Positions 18,487 through 51,577 of a stretch of 64,000 nucleotides of DNA are shown here, piece by piece. Numbering within the stretch: position 1 is the first letter of the stretch; each line of letters starts with the position of its first letter. This stretch comes from Segetibacter sp. 3557_3 (GTDB lineage: Bacteria; Bacteroidota; Bacteroidia; Chitinophagales; Chitinophagaceae). The stretch spans positions 1 to 64,000 of the forward strand of contig NZ_SMSK01000014.1 of assembly GCF_004354985.1 (NCBI RefSeq), written 5' to 3'. Both the position numbers and the translations under genes were made by a program. Below the pieces are notes generated by a model that was given only the letters and a program-made list of their open reading frames with translations, did no database searches and was not told where the DNA came from.

Positions 18487-19356
18487 ATGATACAAATATC
18501 AAACGAAAACCTGCTGGTGCAGGTATCGCCGAAAGGTGCCGAATTGCAAAGTATTGCTAATAAGGAAACCGGATTAGAATACCTGTGGAGTGGCGACCCG
18601 GCATTTTGGCCCAAGAAAAGCCCTGTCCTTTTTCCTATTGTTGGAGGACTGAAAAACAATACTTACACCTTTAATGATAAGTCCTACAACCTGGGTCGCC
18701 ACGGCTTCGCCCGTGATATGGCGTTCACCGTTACTGCTCAGTCATCCGGCCAGGTAACGTTCACGTTGGAAAGTAATGAACAAAGCCGTTTGGTTTACCC
18801 CTTCGAGTTTCGTTTTTCAATAACGTATACCATCATCGACAATGCGGTACAGGTTACCTACCTGGTGGAAAATAAGGTAACTGGTAATATGTATTTTTCA
18901 GTTGGCGCTCATCCCGCTTTTCGGGTTCCTTTAGTTGACGGCACGAGCTATGAAGATTATTATCTGCAGTTTGAAAAAGTAGAAAATGCAGGCAGGTTCC
19001 CGCTTTCACCCGAGGGACTAATCGAACTTACTGCTGAGCCTTATTTGAGCTCCACAAACCAGCTTCCGCTTAAGAAGTCGCTGTTCGAAAAAGATGCACT
19101 TGTTTTCAAAAACCTGCAATCAAATAGCATAACTATTTGTACCAGCAAAGCCGAACATGGCGTCAGGCTTTCTTATGAAGACTTCCCGTATATGGGTATC
19201 TGGGCAGCAAAGGGGGCAGACTTCGTATGTATCGAGCCTTGGTGCGGTATCGCCGATAGTGTAAATGCATCCAGAAAACTCGAGGAGAAAGAAGGGATCA
19301 ACACACTCGCAAGTGGACAAACGTTTACCAGGAGCTATACAATAAACACCTGGTAA
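18487..19356 (+). CDS. Aldose 1-epimerase family protein (mutarotase-like)
   Basis: The 289-residue beta-rich protein belongs to the aldose 1-epimerase / galactose mutarotase-like superfamily. It carries RHGFARDMAF, the conserved SVGAHPAFRVP segment with the catalytic histidine, and FVCIEPWCGIAD near the end. These match the YeaD/LACX-like branch, which acts on sugars or hexose phosphates; the substrate is not known. The ATG at 18487 (MIQISNENLLVQV) is preferred to 18397, because the extra 30 residues are not conserved in the fold. Confidence 0.88.
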   Translation: MIQISNENLLVQVSPKGAELQSIANKETGLEYLWSGDPAFWPKKSPVLFPIVGGLKNNTYTFNDKSYNLGRHGFARDMAFTVTAQSSGQVTFTLESNEQSRLVYPFEFRFSITYTIIDNAVQVTYLVENKVTGNMYFSVGAHPAFRVPLVDGTSYEDYYLQFEKVENAGRFPLSPEGLIELTAEPYLSSTNQLPLKKSLFEKDALVFKNLQSNSITICTSKAEHGVRLSYEDFPYMGIWAAKGADFVCIEPWCGIADSVNASRKLEEKEGINTLASGQTFTRSYTINTW

Positions 19357-19441
19357 TTCGCAAAGGCCAGGCGGTTCTCATATTGTTAATGCGACATCGT
19401 TTAGTTAAGGCCATTGCTTGACTCGCTAAGTGATGGTATAT

Positions 19442-19490
19442 AGTACAACGATATACAATTCAAAGACTGCAGCTTGGTCCAAAACAATTG
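19442..19490 (+). repeat. Dispersed short repeat, copy C
   Basis: AGTACAACGAT, then 23 bases including CAAAGACTGC, then GGTCCAAAAC. The spacing CAACGAT (19446) to GGTCC (19476) equals that of copies at 10129 and 27321. It lies in the gap between the convergent epimerase-like and LolA-like genes. Confidence 0.6.
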
Positions 19491-19530
19491 ATTAATCAAA
19501 CGAGATTAATGGTTATCTCAACAATGGTTA

Positions 19531-20217
19531 CTATAGAAATTCCTTATCGGAAACCCCTTTGTTTATCGTATACGCGGTATAGTTAATTTCTATCCTGCCC
19601 TTTTTATTCTTCAACTTATCCGCTGCCGGTTTTTCACCGGTTTCATATTCAAGGGTAATTCCTTTTGGAACTTTATAGTCTTTGGTGTTAAACGAAAATA
19701 CCACCTTATCCGGCAGGCCATATTCAGCATATTTTCCGTAGCTCATCTCCATGTCGTAAGTTCCGTTTTCCCGGGTGGTGGTGCTGGCCTTTCTGATCAG
19801 GAGATTAGCTTCATCGATATAAAGCGTGGTTAAAACAACGTCGCTGTTTTCAGCAGAGGGCAACAGTTTTATCACTTTTACCGTGGTACCATTTATTTGA
19901 CTCTCCCCTGCACTAAATGCTGTATACGACTCACTGGTAAGCAGGCTGCTCATGTTAACAGAAACACCACCCCTTGGCAAGATAGATATACCACCATCCC
20001 GCTTCAACTTGAATTTGTTCGGCTTTTTAAAAAAGATCTTCACCTTGCCCGCAGGCGCCTTAATAAAAGCAACATCAGTTTTCATCCTACCTTCCGCCAC
20101 ATAGTCGTTTACCCTGTCTAATCGTGTCTTAACCTTTTTTACCAGCCCGGTTACATCCTGAGCAGAAGATATTAGAGAGATAAGTACAAATCCTATAAAA
20201 ATCACTAATGGTTTCAT
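19531..20217 (-). CDS. LolA-like outer-membrane lipoprotein carrier protein
   Basis: The 228-residue protein starts with a signal peptide (hydrophobic residues 4-18, ending SSAQ). It has the LolA/LolB-type beta-barrel-like fold, with KVKIFFKKPNKFKLK and the LLIRKASTT segment. LolA-type proteins carry lipoproteins across the periplasm. Related Bacteroidota proteins with the DUF4292 or outer-membrane-carrier annotation also fit, so the exact role is inferred. It lies 37 bases downstream of an ABC exporter permease on the same strand, which may place it in that transcript. Confidence 0.75.
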   Translation of the reverse strand: MKPLVIFIGFVLISLISSAQDVTGLVKKVKTRLDRVNDYVAEGRMKTDVAFIKAPAGKVKIFFKKPNKFKLKRDGGISILPRGGVSVNMSSLLTSESYTAFSAGESQINGTTVKVIKLLPSAENSDVVLTTLYIDEANLLIRKASTTTRENGTYDMEMSYGKYAEYGLPDKVVFSFNTKDYKVPKGITLEYETGEKPAADKLKNKKGRIEINYTAYTINKGVSDKEFL

Positions 20218-25239: not shown

Positions 25240-27102
25240 CTAATCGGGTTTTTTTCCATCAAGAAAGGTGTTGATGGAATTGATTTCCGACTTATTATTT
25301 TCATCCGTTTTAACGGTGTACTTACTGTAAAAATTCTCTACCGATGTAAGTGTACTGCCAAACATCTCCATGTTACGGCGAATGTAAGCTGGCACAGCTT
25401 CAAACTCACTATTAGGATCAGCAGCATTCATGTTAAACGACAGGTTACGCAACTTTTGAATACGCTCCGCTGCCCTGCGCTTTTGGTCATCAGCTTCATC
25501 GGTGGCCGGCTGCTCTTCAGGAGCTTGCGGCTGAACCATAACTGCCGGCTTCGCTTCTTCAACCGGCGGCTCGTCTTTCAACACCAGGGTTAACTCCAAT
25601 TCGGGAGCATCAGCTGGTGGCGGAGGCGGCACCTCCCTAAAGTTATTTACCGGCTCAGTTGAGGAAGCCGAAGTATAAATGTTTGATGGCTTTGAAAGAA
25701 ATCCCGTACCCGGACGAACAGGTTGCTGCTCATTCCGGCGCTGGTTGCCTTCCCTGTTTTCTTCTGCAGTCACCACCTTAATCTTTTGAACGGGCGGTGG
25801 CGCTGGTGCAGGCTCATCGGTTTCGGGTCTGAGCTCAAGGCGCATACCCATCTCGCTTTCGGGCTGGGTTTCTTCCCTTGCAGGTTGCTCAGAAGGCATT
25901 TGCAAAGTCATGCGCTCTTCACCAGCTTGTGCAGGCGTTGCCGGGGCTGCAGGCTGCGAAGCAAAAGGTTGTGCAGGTGAGTCTTCACTCAGCCTTGGTG
26001 CAAACGGGTCCTTTTCAACAGCAGGAGCGGTTGCCTTGCTATATAATTTTTTCTCTTCATCCTGTACCCCAAGTGTCATTACGATCTTTTCTTCACGCTT
26101 AACCTCTTTTACGACCAGCGGCTCACGAAAAGGATCTTTACCTTCAAAACCGGTAGCGATGATGGTAACGCCGATTTTAGTACCAAGGGTTTCATCGAAG
26201 CCGATGCCTTTTATTACGTCGGTATCTTCACCGGCTTCCTGGCGCAGGTAACTCATAATGGTATCTTCTTCATCCATTGTGATTTCATGTTCACCTTCCG
26301 ATGAAGTGATGTTTACAAGGATCCATTTTGCACCCCTGATCTCGCTGTCGTTCAACAATGGAGAGTTTACCGCATCTTCAATCGCACGTTGCGCGCGATC
26401 TTCACCTTCTGCAACTGCACTGCCCAATATGGCAACACCACCATTGCGCATTACGGTGCAAACGTCTGCAAAGTCAACATTAATCTGGCCATTGCTTGTA
26501 ATTACATCGGTTATACATTTAGATGCAGTCGCAAGAATGTTATCCGCTTTGCTAAAAGCCTCGCGCACTTTCAAATTGCCATATTGGTGGCGAAGTTTAT
26601 CGTTTGAAATCACCAGTAAGGTGTCTACATTTTCCCTGAGTTGTTGTATTCCTGCTTCCGCATGACGCATCCGTTTTGGCCCTTCATTACTAAAAGGTGT
26701 TGTAACAATACCAACGGTAAGTATACCCAGGTCTTTACAAATTTTAGAAATGATTGGCGCCCCACCGGTACCGGTACCACCACCCATGCCCGCAGTGATA
26801 AACGCCATTTTTGTATTCACTTCGAGTATACGCTTAATTTCTTCCAGGCTCTCTTCTGTTGCTTGCTTACCGATCTCGGGATTTGCTCCCGCTCCAAGAC
26901 CTTGCGTAAGGTGCGGCCCGAGTTGTATTTTGTTGGTCACCTTACTGTTTGCCAACGCCTGCGCATCGGTGTTACAAATGATGAAATCAACACTGTCTAT
27001 ATTTTGGAGGAACATGTGGTTTACGGCATTGCCACCGCCACCACCAACGCCTATCACCTTAAGGATAGACGACTTCTGCTTAGGCAGATCAAAATGTATC
27101 AT
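25240..27102 (-). CDS. ftsZ: Cell division GTPase FtsZ with a long C-terminal linker
   Basis: FtsZ is the tubulin-like GTPase that forms the division ring. The GTP-binding loop GGGTGTG is at residues 107-113 and the globular domain ends near 335. At 620 residues it is much longer than the usual 380-450. Residues ~340-545 form a Pro/Glu/Ala-rich disordered linker. The FtsA-binding C-terminal peptide is probably EAVPAYIRR near 568-576, and it is unusually followed by a 44-residue Asn/Ser-rich tail. The gene is separated from ftsA by a 1.08-kb gap that holds a repeat array. Confidence 0.97.
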   Translation of the reverse strand: MIHFDLPKQKSSILKVIGVGGGGGNAVNHMFLQNIDSVDFIICNTDAQALANSKVTNKIQLGPHLTQGLGAGANPEIGKQATEESLEEIKRILEVNTKMAFITAGMGGGTGTGGAPIISKICKDLGILTVGIVTTPFSNEGPKRMRHAEAGIQQLRENVDTLLVISNDKLRHQYGNLKVREAFSKADNILATASKCITDVITSNGQINVDFADVCTVMRNGGVAILGSAVAEGEDRAQRAIEDAVNSPLLNDSEIRGAKWILVNITSSEGEHEITMDEEDTIMSYLRQEAGEDTDVIKGIGFDETLGTKIGVTIIATGFEGKDPFREPLVVKEVKREEKIVMTLGVQDEEKKLYSKATAPAVEKDPFAPRLSEDSPAQPFASQPAAPATPAQAGEERMTLQMPSEQPAREETQPESEMGMRLELRPETDEPAPAPPPVQKIKVVTAEENREGNQRRNEQQPVRPGTGFLSKPSNIYTSASSTEPVNNFREVPPPPPADAPELELTLVLKDEPPVEEAKPAVMVQPQAPEEQPATDEADDQKRRAAERIQKLRNLSFNMNAADPNSEFEAVPAYIRRNMEMFGSTLTSVENFYSKYTVKTDENNKSEINSINTFLDGKKPD

Positions 27103-27149
27103 AATCTGAATTTAAAGTGGGTGTATGTGTTTGTTGTTGTTTGTGTTTC

Positions 27150-27177
27150 AAAGTCAAAATTCAAAAGTGAAAATTCA
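27150..27177. repeat. 14-bp direct duplication upstream of ftsZ
   Basis: AAAGTCAAAATTCA (27150-27163) is immediately followed by AAAGTGAAAATTCA (27164-27177), differing in one base. It lies 48-75 bases upstream of the ftsZ ATG, in the probable leader. Confidence 0.7.
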
Positions 27178-27178
27178 A

Positions 27179-27213
27179 CTGAAAGCCACACCAAAAATGG
27201 TTTGGTGCTTCAG
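27179..27213 (-). promoter_or_regulatory. Hairpin in the ftsZ leader
   Basis: CACCAAA (27089+100 to 27195) pairs with TTTGGTG (27201-27207) around a 5-base loop. Flanking CTGAA and TTCAG extend the stem with a small bulge. On the minus strand it is followed by TTGAATTTTCAC, too weak for a clear terminator, so it may be an mRNA-stability or processing element. Confidence 0.45.
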
Positions 27214-27274
27214 ATGAATTCATCTTTTTTGCTTGCCGAGCAAACCCCGTTACATTGTACGTCGACGAGTTGAA

Positions 27275-27360
27275 CGCTGTAGTACAAGTGTGCGACCGCC
27301 AGCAAGTTGGGGGCACGGCGCAACGATGTTCCAAAGAGTTACCGCAGTTGGGTCCAAAAA
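27275..27360 (+). repeat. Dispersed short repeat, copy B
   Basis: It contains AGTACAAGTGTGCGAC (27281-27296), then CAACGAT (27321-27327), 23 bases, and GGTCC (27351-27355), the same architecture as copy A at 10103. An extra ~20 bases sit between the two parts relative to copy A. Confidence 0.6.
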
Positions 27361-27427
27361 AATCTTCAACTAAACAGGGCTAAAGGCGTAGTGCTAACCC
27401 GCTAGTCTTCAATCCAGATGCGCCATC

Positions 27428-28175
27428 TTCTCTGCGGTTCTTCCGCAATCCGCCAATCCGCAATTCGCTAATCACCCTCTGCTCCTCCCCTTCTCTGCGG
27501 TTCTCCAATCCGCAATCCGCCTATCCACAATTCGGTAATTCTCCCCTCTGCGCAACCTCTTTTTCTCCCCTTCTCTGCGGTGTGTATCCATCCGCAATCC
27601 GCCAATCCGCAATCCGCTAATTGTCACCCTCTGCACAACCTCTGCTTCTCCCCTTCTCTGCGGTTCTCCAATCCGTAATCCGCTAATCCGCACTTCGCTA
27701 ATCACGTCCTCTCCGCGCCAACGTCTGCTCCTCCCGCCTCAGCAGTTCTCTAATCCCCAATCCACTAATCCGTAATTCGCTATTCACCCTCTGCGCAACC
27801 TCTGCTTCTCCCCTTCTCTGCGGTTCTCCAATCCGTAATCCGCTAATCCGCACTTCGCTAATCACCTCCCCTCCGCGCCAACCTCTGCTCCTCCCGTGTC
27901 AGCAGTTCTCTAATCCCCAATCCACTAATCCGTAATTCGCTATTCACCCTCTGCGCAATCTCTGCTCCTCCCCTTCTCTGCGGTTCTCCAATCCGTCATC
28001 CACTAATCCGTAATTCGCTAATCACCCTCTGCGCAACCTCTCTTTCTCCCCTTCTCTGCGGTTCTCCAATCCGTCATCCGCCAATCCGTAATTCGCTAAT
28101 CACCTTCTGCGCAACCTCTCTTTCTCCCCTTCTCTGCGGTTCTCCAATCCGTCATCCGCCAATCCGTAATTCGCT
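27428..28175. repeat. Degenerate ~80-bp tandem repeat array between ftsA and ftsZ
   Basis: The landmark TTCTCTGCGG, or its variant with CAGCAG, recurs at about 27428, 27491, 27571, 27654, 27737, 27814, 27896, 27974, 28052 and 28130. Spacing is mostly 77-83 bases. Each unit has a pyrimidine-rich half (CTCTGCGCAACCTCTGCTTC and similar) and a half built from AATCCGC/AATTCGC heptamer-like words. The last three units at the ftsA side are the most regular. Unlike CRISPR, there are no unique spacers. The array fills most of the 1,079-base ftsA-ftsZ gap and ends 6 bases from the ftsA stop. Confidence 0.92.
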
Positions 28176-28181
28176 ATTCGA

Positions 28182-29549
28182 TTACCTCAGGTCCTGGTCG
28201 CCTTCTTCCTTAAACAATTCAAGCAGGTTATTCTTAAACTTGTCCCAGAACTTTATTCCTTTTCTTGCTTTGGTATTGATCTTTTCTTCTACAAACTCAA
28301 CAGCCTTTGGCTCCACCGTTTCTTTTACAAGTTGCCCCGGAACTTCAACACGATTGAACGTTTTTTGAAATTCTTTATGCTTGTGCTCATAGTCGCTGCA
28401 TCCCTTTAAGATGAGCCCGATACAAGTGCTGTACATTGGCTTGTTCAACTCGTCGATGTGGTTCGGAGCAAGGTGTGCATTTGGATAACCGATGCGCGCA
28501 TAAAGCCCGGTTGAAAACTCTGTTAGTTGGATCAGGTGTTTAAGCTGAGAACCCCCACCGGTAAGTATGATGCCCCCGTTCAACACCCTGCTATCTAGGC
28601 CTACCTGCTTCAGGTGATACGTTACAAAGTCAAGTATCTCGCCCATTCTCGCTTGTATGATGTTCGCAAGATTTTTTACACTGATCTCTTTTGCAGGCAT
28701 TCCGTTCATACCCGGAATGGTAATAAAGGCATTTGCTTTTGCCTCATCAGCGAGTGCACTTCCAAATTGCACTTTCATGGCTTCGGCTTGTTGCTTCAAT
28801 ACACCAAGGCCAGTCTTGATATCGTTGGTAATGTTTTCACCACCAAATGGAATTACAGCAGTGTGCTTTAAGATGCCTTCGTAAAACACGGCAAGGTCAC
28901 TGGTACCACCGCCAATGTCAAGGATTGCAACACCTGCTTCCATATCCAGTTCATGCATTACCGCCGAAGCTGAAGCGAGGGGTTGCAGCACGAGATCTTT
29001 TGTTTTCAACCCGCTCTTATCCACCGCCCGGTTGATGTTGCGGATGGCGTTTCGATCGCCTGTTATAATGTGAAAGTTAGCGCCGACTTTAACCCCGTTG
29101 TAACCGATGGGGTTACTAATGTTCTGAATATTATCGACAGTAAATTCCTGTGGAATAACATCGATGATCTGGTCACCTGCAGGTATAAATGTTTTCCGTT
29201 GGTTTTCTATGAGCATCTCAATTTCCAGCTGCGATATTTCGTTTTCGGAGTCCTGGCGAACAATGTCTCCACGCGTTTGAAGACTTTTTATATGGTGACC
29301 GGCAATACCCACATACACCTCGCTGATTTCAAGATCGGGGTTGCTTTCATAACAGTTTTTAAGGGCCATATGAATGGCGTTGATGGTCTGCTCGATATTG
29401 AGTACCTGGCCGTGTTGTACCCCGGTACTGTTGGCCTTACCGAAACCCAAAATCTCCAACTTACCAAACTCGTTTTTTCGACCGGCAATGGCAGCAATTT
29501 TGGTAGTACCAATGTCCAGGCCTACAATGATTGGTAATTCGTTGCTCAT
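28182..29549 (-). CDS. ftsA: Cell division protein FtsA
   Basis: FtsA is the actin-like ATPase that tethers FtsZ to the membrane. The 455-residue protein has the nucleotide-binding motif VGLDIGTTKI near residue 9, GHHIKSLQT in the 1C domain and the phosphate-2 motif AILDIGGGTSDLAV near 210, followed by ILTGGGSQL. The C-terminus continues past the actin fold into about 60 charged residues that end in a region with WDKFKNNLLELFKEE, a plausible membrane-targeting amphipathic helix. It lies 65 bases downstream of ftsQ. Confidence 0.96.
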   Translation of the reverse strand: MSNELPIIVGLDIGTTKIAAIAGRKNEFGKLEILGFGKANSTGVQHGQVLNIEQTINAIHMALKNCYESNPDLEISEVYVGIAGHHIKSLQTRGDIVRQDSENEISQLEIEMLIENQRKTFIPAGDQIIDVIPQEFTVDNIQNISNPIGYNGVKVGANFHIITGDRNAIRNINRAVDKSGLKTKDLVLQPLASASAVMHELDMEAGVAILDIGGGTSDLAVFYEGILKHTAVIPFGGENITNDIKTGLGVLKQQAEAMKVQFGSALADEAKANAFITIPGMNGMPAKEISVKNLANIIQARMGEILDFVTYHLKQVGLDSRVLNGGIILTGGGSQLKHLIQLTEFSTGLYARIGYPNAHLAPNHIDELNKPMYSTCIGLILKGCSDYEHKHKEFQKTFNRVEVPGQLVKETVEPKAVEFVEEKINTKARKGIKFWDKFKNNLLELFKEEGDQDLR

Positions 29550-51137: not shown

Positions 51138-51577
51138 TTTTTGGGTATTGGGTTTTGAGGTATTGGGTATTAAGGTATGGGGTTCGCGCCGGCGCAGGTG
51201 TTGTCACCTGGGATGGGAGTATTTTTAGATCTTGGGTATTGAGGTATTGGGTTCGCGCCGGCGCAGGTGTTGTCACTTGCGAAAGGGGAAAGTAGTTCTT
51301 GGGTATTGGGTAATAAGGTATTAGGTATTGAGGTATAGGGGTTCCCGCCGTCGCAGGTGTCGTCACCTCCGACTTGAGTAAGCAGGAGTAGTGTAGCGGT
51401 GCCCTCGCAGGTGTTGTCACCTGCGATTAGACATAAGCAGGAATGATGTCGGCCTCCGCAATTGTTCCGCCGGCGCAGGTGTTGTCACCTGCAATTGAAT
51501 CCCGGAACCGCAAAAGCAGCAGACCGCATCGAAGCGGTAGGGCTTTTCTGCAAACAACTGCGAAGCTGGTTTACAAG
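51138..51577. other. Repeat-rich intergenic region after engB
   Basis: 440 bases with GGTATTGGGTATTGAGG-type short direct repeats interleaved with five palindromic hairpin units, listed separately. The open frame across it on the minus strand (51094-51420) encodes only the repeats, so it is not a gene. Confidence 0.8.
51194..51492. repeat. Five REP-like palindromic units GCAGGTG-TTGT-CACCTGC
   Basis: Units at 51194-51211, 51263-51280, 51353-51370, 51407-51424 and 51475-51492. Two are perfect 7-bp stems with loop TTGT; the others carry one or two changes (loop TCGT in the third). They are usually preceded by CGCCGGC or a relative. Spacing is 54-90 bases. The form resembles bacterial REP elements, though no RAYT transposase gene is in the window. 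Confidence 0.88.

Follow-up and report, generated by a model that had tools for sequence, protein, structure and literature searches.

The window, a stretch of 64,000 nt from Segetibacter sp. 3557_3 (GCF_004354985.1, contig NZ_SMSK01000014.1, positions 1–64,000 of the forward strand), carries ftsA and ftsZ on its minus strand. The gap of 1,079 nt given for them by the first-pass annotation was confirmed from the gene ends (ftsA ends at 28182, ftsZ starts at 27102). Read along the minus strand, ftsA is followed by a composite tandem array, a second dispersed repeat (R2), a tract of TTTTGAC/TTTTGAA words, a leader containing AACAACAAC, and ftsZ (Table 1).

Table 1. Features of the ftsA-ftsZ region, in positions of the window.
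Feature	Position	Strand	Description	Source
ftsA	28182..29549	-	455 aa	ORF list
Composite tandem array	27427..28182	-	~9.5 units of 78-84 nt, 756 nt	TRF, repeat finding, unit cutting
First full unit as cut	28067..28144	-	M2 module, then M1 words	
Part of array with 160-nt higher-order duplication	27624..28023	-		
R2	27277..27375	-	second dispersed repeat, unrelated to the array	
14-nt-period tract	27150..27178	+	AAAGTCAAAATTCA	TRF
ftsZ leader	27103..27145	-	AACAACAAC stretch resembling leaders of genus relatives	
ftsZ	25240..27102	-	620 aa	ORF list

Over the best segments, ftsZ is 45–85% identical to that of 51 relatives. The C-terminus of ftsA reads DQDLR*, with a stop one codon later than in eight relatives of the genus (DKDL* or DKEM*), and the first clear repeat word, GCGAATT, starts at 28174, 7 nt past this stop. 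The displaced stop, together with a word of the array 7 nt beyond it, is compatible with an array that grew, or was inserted, as far as the stop codon itself. R2 has 22 other matches in the genome of the strain and none in 18 relatives (in several of them, among the 40 first-look candidates that were scored). On the ftsZ strand, the words of the 14-nt-period tract (TTTTGAATTTTGACTTT) match a portion of the right arm that the hairpin between ftsA and ftsZ has at loci L029 and L049. A left arm was not noted for this tract, and no inverted pair in positions 27000–28300 reaches 20 nt; judging from its words, an older hairpin may once have occupied the gap and have since lost its left arm. Elsewhere in the window, GGTATTG-type tracts with a 15-nt period, another heptad-like word of this genome, lie outside genes at 51139–51340.

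Tandem Repeats Finder (TRF), which had been proposed as a check, placed the array at 27476–28179 with a period of 78 nt (8.8 copies), and also with periods of 160 and 238 nt; a second repeat-finding method agreed. Cut at the GAGAACC-type junction, the units start on the minus strand at 28144, 28066, 27988, 27910, 27828, 27750, 27668, 27584, 27505 and 27443, with lengths of 78, 78, 78, 82, 78, 82, 84, 79 and 62 nt and one partial unit. The description of about ten tandem units at intervals of roughly 77–83 bases was thus borne out. Each unit is composed of two modules, for which we coined the names M1 and M2. M2 is a GCAGAG-rich module, and M1 is a series of words, among them GCGAATT, ACGGATT, GCGGATT and GTGGATT, at steps of 7 or 8 nt, seen by TRF as 15-nt periods inside the units. 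The heptad-type M1 words fill only half of each unit.

The units adjoining ftsA had been described as the most alike. Units 1 and 2 do agree at 96%, yet units 3 and 5 are the closest pair of all (97%), and units 4 and 6 agree at 94%. The greater divergence reported on the ftsZ side was found again, units 7–9 being 66–86% alike to the other units. The similarity of units 3 and 5 and of units 4 and 6 shows that the central part of the array underwent a higher-order duplication of 160 nt: here, 27624–27783 and 27784–27943 are 96% alike, and 27709–27863 and 27869–28023 are 94% alike. From the similarity of the units, we infer that the array lengthened by 78 nt at a time and was later subject to the 160-nt duplication, the ftsZ end probably being the oldest.

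Several other identities of the array were considered and rejected. The units are contiguous and 66–97% alike over their whole length with no unique spacers, contrary to a CRISPR array. Stop codons occur in all three minus-strand frames, and the plus strand was checked for ORFs of at least 80 aa, so that a coding array was also discarded. A known structured RNA was set aside on the basis of Rfam, which gave no match at E ≤ 1 for 27000–28300.

The array query matched 84 places in the genome of the strain (6.75 Mb, 35 contigs) and none in 38 relatives, of which nine belong to the same genus. To cover these places, 39 stretches were fetched, which together with the window made 40 stretches and 43 clusters; 39 clusters were usable (both flanking genes present, no gene overlap). 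Genes in the stretches were called with a hexamer-score caller written for this analysis, and its starts may lie too far upstream. Among 10 scanned edge genes, whose stop codon has an array only a few nt away, seven had Pfam matches (PEP carboxylase, amidase, thioredoxin-like, GH2, FtsX/MacB, HlyD-type, IMPDH) and three had none. In relatives, the ftsA-ftsZ gap measures only 27–364 nt (47 of 51 loci measurable), which together with the absence of a match in the 38 relatives indicates a lineage-specific expansion. Both possibilities had been raised in the first-pass annotation, namely a repeat spread over the genome that merely also sits here, and a short gap lacking this DNA in relatives, and both describe what we found. 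Because of the 84 places, the unrelated edge genes and the lack of a match in 38 relatives, the array is not specific to ftsZ: it is a dispersed gene-edge repeat which expanded at this site, and not an ftsZ device.

The arrays have a marked polarity. On the G-rich strand, the gene next to the 5′ end is closer than the one next to the 3′ end in 34/39 arrays, with median distances of 32 and 299 nt. In 16/39 arrays, the 5′ end overlaps a gene or comes within 10 nt of one; the 3′ end does so in 0/39, and random placement of each array in its own gap gave a mean of 1.2 and a maximum of 7 such cases in 10,000 trials. As the row of the window itself was fixed by the query, we also counted without it: the 5′ end is then nearer in 33/38 arrays and within 10 nt in 15/38, and five of the 38 have the opposite polarity. 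Stop codons were counted separately because the called start codons may be too far upstream; with stops only, a distance of up to 10 nt was found for 12/20 arrays at the 5′ end (11/19 without the window) and for 0/25 at the 3′ end. Co-directional flanking genes follow the G strand in 12 cases and oppose it in 17; the remaining pairs are convergent (eight) or divergent (two) (n = 39; raw counts without background). Thus, the direction of transcription does not explain the polarity. Rho avoidance through a C-poor transcript was likewise rejected, given the 12 co-directional cases with the G strand and 17 against it. The orientation at gene edges, as well as the recurrence of repeats in relatives described below, could not be seen from the letters of the window.

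The M2 module is also found elsewhere, in another arrangement. Its pattern is present in 7 of 147 genomes of the family (29 times here and 13 times in G328, a genome of another genus), and GCGGATTGCGGATTG occurs in 6 of 395 genomes of a phylum sample, the own genome included. In G328, the M2 arm starts at most 16 nt from a stop codon, or overlaps it, at 8 of 13 sites (longest-ORF gene calls), and a reverse-complement arm was seen by eye about 40–95 nt further on in 8 of 11 stretches. We counted M2 arms with an inward-pointing partner within 300 nt, allowing up to two substitutions in the pattern, at loci chosen for holding M2. Such partners were present for 16/24 arms in G328, 4/12 in five other genomes and 0/92 in the own genome; the reversed control pattern matched once in G328, once in the other genomes and six times in the own genome. 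A count with up to three substitutions (2/218 in the own genome vs 20/40) was dropped because the reversed control then gives 68 matches in the same own-genome DNA. With 0/92 arms paired, the strain carries only one arm of the hairpin, often in tandem. Also, at two loci of G328 (L207 and L210, on G328:C1), M2 arms occur as inverted pairs separated by only 60 and 94 nt, resembling a miniature inverted-repeat element. An apparent M1 hairpin was noted by eye near the end of an ORF in a distant genome (L113).

Heptad-like repeats are not limited to this family of sequences. In a wider TRF sample of spaced 20-kb pieces (400 kb of the own genome, 620 kb of G003 from the same genus, 400 kb of G013 from the same family), arrays outside genes had a period of 7, 8, 14 or 15 nt in 12/31, 45/68 and 22/28 cases, respectively (79/127 in total), and arrays inside genes in 19/79. 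The words are diverse (TTATGAG, AAAATGT, GTTTGAT, GTACGAA, GGTTGATA and others). When averaged over the sampled intergenic DNA of the own genome, the 7-nt signal is weak (excess of 0.004–0.007 at lags 7, 8, 14 and 15, with an sd of about 0.0016), and our statement on heptads refers to the TRF arrays. Among 92 intergenic heptad-like arrays with two flanking genes, 77 were clearly G/C-skewed, and the 5′ end of the G strand, assigned by G > C, was nearer to a gene in 62 of these (81%). Control segments gave 644/1173 (55%), and 229/339 (68%) within 40 nt of a gene, so that part of this wider polarity signal is background base skew. Other tandem structures were also noted. At loci L122 (10491–11897) and L128 (6676–7600), a CGTCATTGCGA...GAAGCAATCCC element is repeated in tandem, its periods ranging from 21 to 231 nt, and L128 also has a 110-nt tandem repeat at 19166–19571 (3.4 copies) with tRNA-like starts, in which ARAGORN found one tRNA-Asp (19497–19571).

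The ftsA-ftsZ gap itself is a recurrent site of repeats. Of the 31 gaps of at least 60 nt in relatives, nine have a 7- or 8-nt periodicity (z > 3) and 11 fold at z < -2 against dinucleotide shuffles. The genus is represented by eight readable relatives, G003 included (one further genome had no ftsZ match). In five of the eight, the gap has a 7/8-nt periodicity, with GAGTTGT, GGTTAAAGGTGTAAGG, AGTCAGTT, GAGTTAT and AGTCATTC among the words; in six of the eight, it folds at z ≤ -2.9 (mononucleotide shuffles). These features start at most a few nt from the ftsA stop. The gap of L010 reaches only z = -1.9 against dinucleotide shuffles, and those of L012 and L013 have neither periodicity nor fold. 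For comparison, other gaps at seven of these loci were periodic in 3/26 cases (Fisher p = 0.0085, which serves as a guide only because the tests were chosen after the sequences had been seen), and 6 of 24 fold at z ≤ -2.9; the fold alone is therefore not special to the ftsA-ftsZ gap. Within the genus, the gap is thus a place where repeats recur, the position being kept while the words differ. On the other side of ftsZ, just past the gene, L010, L012, L013, L026 and L037 share a hairpin-like ACCGGTTGGTGAACTGGTRTGAG, followed by a T run in four of the five as far as printed, and L011 has a diverged form of it; its 18-nt core is absent from the window at up to three mismatches.

Comparable repeats have been described in other phyla. 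According to the part of the text available for Rehm et al. (2015; PMC4692102), heptameric G-rich repeats occur as GGGAATC in Xanthomonas and GGGGA(C/T)T in Nostoc, and lie nearer to the ORF at their 5′ side whatever its direction (28 vs 160 nt on average in xanthomonads); neither their function nor the cause of the polarity is explained there. The arrays of the strain resemble what is described there: mostly intergenic and dispersed, with similar 7-nt words, unrelated neighbour genes, some inverted pairs, and the same G-strand polarity. The published repeats are few between divergent genes, a situation of two of the 39 arrays here. They share with these repeats the tandem 7-nt words, in M1, and a G strand whose 5′ end, and not its 3′ end, is close to a gene. 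In contrast, the repeats covered in that text consist of simple runs of heptamers, contain G-quadruplex tracts and come preferentially in four units, whereas the array here fuses a second module into a unit of 78–84 nt, with about 10 units and words containing only GG. GGGG is found about once or twice per unit, the words GCGGATT, ACGGATT and GCGAATT have only GG or G, and by reading the sequence we saw no GGG tracts of the G-quadruplex type in the array.

TAACTGA direct repeats are reported by MacGregor (2015; PMC4679880) for Beggiatoaceae, Cyanobacteria and five Bacteroidetes; according to the accessible part of that paper, most of those in its principal genome directly precede a start codon. 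Like the present repeats, they are described as heptameric, mostly intergenic and patchy across phyla, some being long and some overlapping stop codons. They differ by their word and, as far as described there, by the absence of a composite unit, and TAACTGA has no tandem copies in our array. REP elements associated with RAYT, as presented in the available part of PMC3733652, are also short, extragenic and located at gene ends, and some of them supply a stop codon; they form hairpins, unlike the own-genome copies, whose M2 arms are unpaired (0/92), the array also having no inverted pair of at least 20 nt. No link with RAYT was found around the 11 of 25 Y1_Tnp matches inspected. The polarity of heptamers, already published for Xanthomonas and Nostoc, thus extends to Bacteroidota and to a composite 78-nt unit. 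The cyanobacterial STRR repeats of Calothrix are also tandem heptanucleotides; repeats of Calothrix are mentioned in the Xanthomonas study. In literature searches, no paper on the present repeat was among the matches listed, judged by title or beginning of the abstract, subscription papers being mostly outside the coverage; the repeat words, entered as letters, returned only titles on peanut, spinal cord and cavefish, and searches on ftsA, ftsZ and Bacteroidetes gave no title treating the ftsA-ftsZ gap.

Taken together, we consider it probable that the array is a gene-edge repeat which slippage and unequal exchange have enlarged, which selection on ftsA keeps within bounds, and which is largely neutral. 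This explanation is supported by the dispersal of the repeat, its polarity, the unrelated edge genes, the unpaired M2 arms, the 78- and 160-nt steps and the displaced ftsA stop. An M2 arm, the half of a hairpin in another genus, would have been fused to GCGGATT words, and the fused unit would have multiplied in tandem through replication slippage and unequal exchange, in steps of 78 nt and later in a step of 160 nt; these steps are read from the likeness of the units, and not from a strain-level empty site. Such an array could grow to the edge of a gene and not into it, which would leave one of its ends flush with ftsA. For ftsZ, which appears to keep its own leader, the array would most likely be near-neutral spacing DNA. 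The recurrence of periodic gaps in the genus (5/8 vs 3/26) exceeds what is expected from a random, neutral process, and counts against this explanation, as do the five of 38 arrays with opposite polarity and the share of background base skew in the wider polarity sample.

The same recurrence favors a reading which we judge unlikely, if still to be taken seriously: the gap would need an mRNA hairpin or spacer, acting for example on the FtsA:FtsZ ratio or protecting an mRNA end, and rebuilt from whatever words are current, and here the array would have replaced the hairpin and would tune ftsZ. The periodic (5/8) and folding (6/8) genus gaps near the ftsA stop, with their different words, agree with it, as do the fold of the array RNA (z = -5.1 vs 20 dinucleotide shuffles) and the possible orphan right arm at 27150–27178. 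However, L012 and L013 lack both features, L010 is weak against dinucleotide shuffles, a quarter of the other gaps (6/24) fold equally, and the same arrays adjoin unrelated genes in both orientations. Moreover, the array, devoid of inverted pairs of at least 20 nt, has a centroid structure that is mostly unpaired. The leader RNA gives z = -0.2 on folding. It is very unlikely that ftsZ has a separate promoter carried or created by the array, or that the array terminates ftsA transcripts. A scan with a Bacteroidetes-type promoter consensus located one TTTG-N22-CACTTTTG site with one mismatch at 27195–27162, the expectation from mononucleotide-shuffled versions of the gap as a whole being 0.09. 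This site nevertheless belongs to the leader, outside the array, and the array contains no such site at up to two mismatches. Also, no sigma-70-type promoter or terminator-like site was detected in 27000–28300, which is weak evidence with 0.9 and 0.7 expected by chance. The separate ftsZ promoter that had been proposed inside the array was thus not found, and other forms of control by the array, such as uncoupling or buffering of ftsZ, are possible and unsupported.

It appears highly improbable that the repeat is of the REP/REPIN type and was mobilised by a Y1 (RAYT) transposase. The repeat is extragenic, dispersed, near stop codons and in hairpin form in G328, and Y1_Tnp genes exist in six of six genomes searched, with three such genes in the own genome. 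On the other hand, the 11 of 25 Y1_Tnp surroundings inspected (two of three in the own genome) held only 0–5 scattered single repeat words, and after the own Y1_Tnp copy on contig C29 comes another palindrome, GCCCCGCTGGGGC, in 11 or more copies. This last locus (L226, G000:C29, ~359188–359532), with a RAYT-like Y1_Tnp gene followed by 11 GCCCCGCTGGGGC-type palindromes within the stretch fetched, constitutes a REP-like family of its own. Tandem repeats are prone to error in draft assemblies, yet an assembly artefact is barely credible here: all units differ, the array is internal to a contig that measures 69 kb or more, and the same repeat family is present on many other contigs. Finally, we find it decidedly unlikely, although of interest, that a process of the whole family keeps writing species-specific 7–8-nt words as inward-pointing G-rich tracts and hairpins at gene edges, the ftsA-ftsZ hairpin acting by its shape, for example by setting the ftsZ:ftsA message, and the array being a runaway arm. 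Under such a process, the hairpin would work by shape, since the position between ftsA and ftsZ is kept and the word is not.

The same polarity in Xanthomonas, in a Nostoc-type cyanobacterium and in Bacteroidota suggests a general cause and not a quirk of one lineage. This cause could be growth toward the edge of a gene, or the presence of one half of a palindrome. In our opinion, the most interesting point is the repeat behind ftsA in related species, which is variable in its words and kept in its position. Should the word-variable hairpins that follow ftsA prove functional, this would mean selection on position and shape without conservation of sequence, beside an essential gene. If true, ordinary conservation scans would miss such selection.
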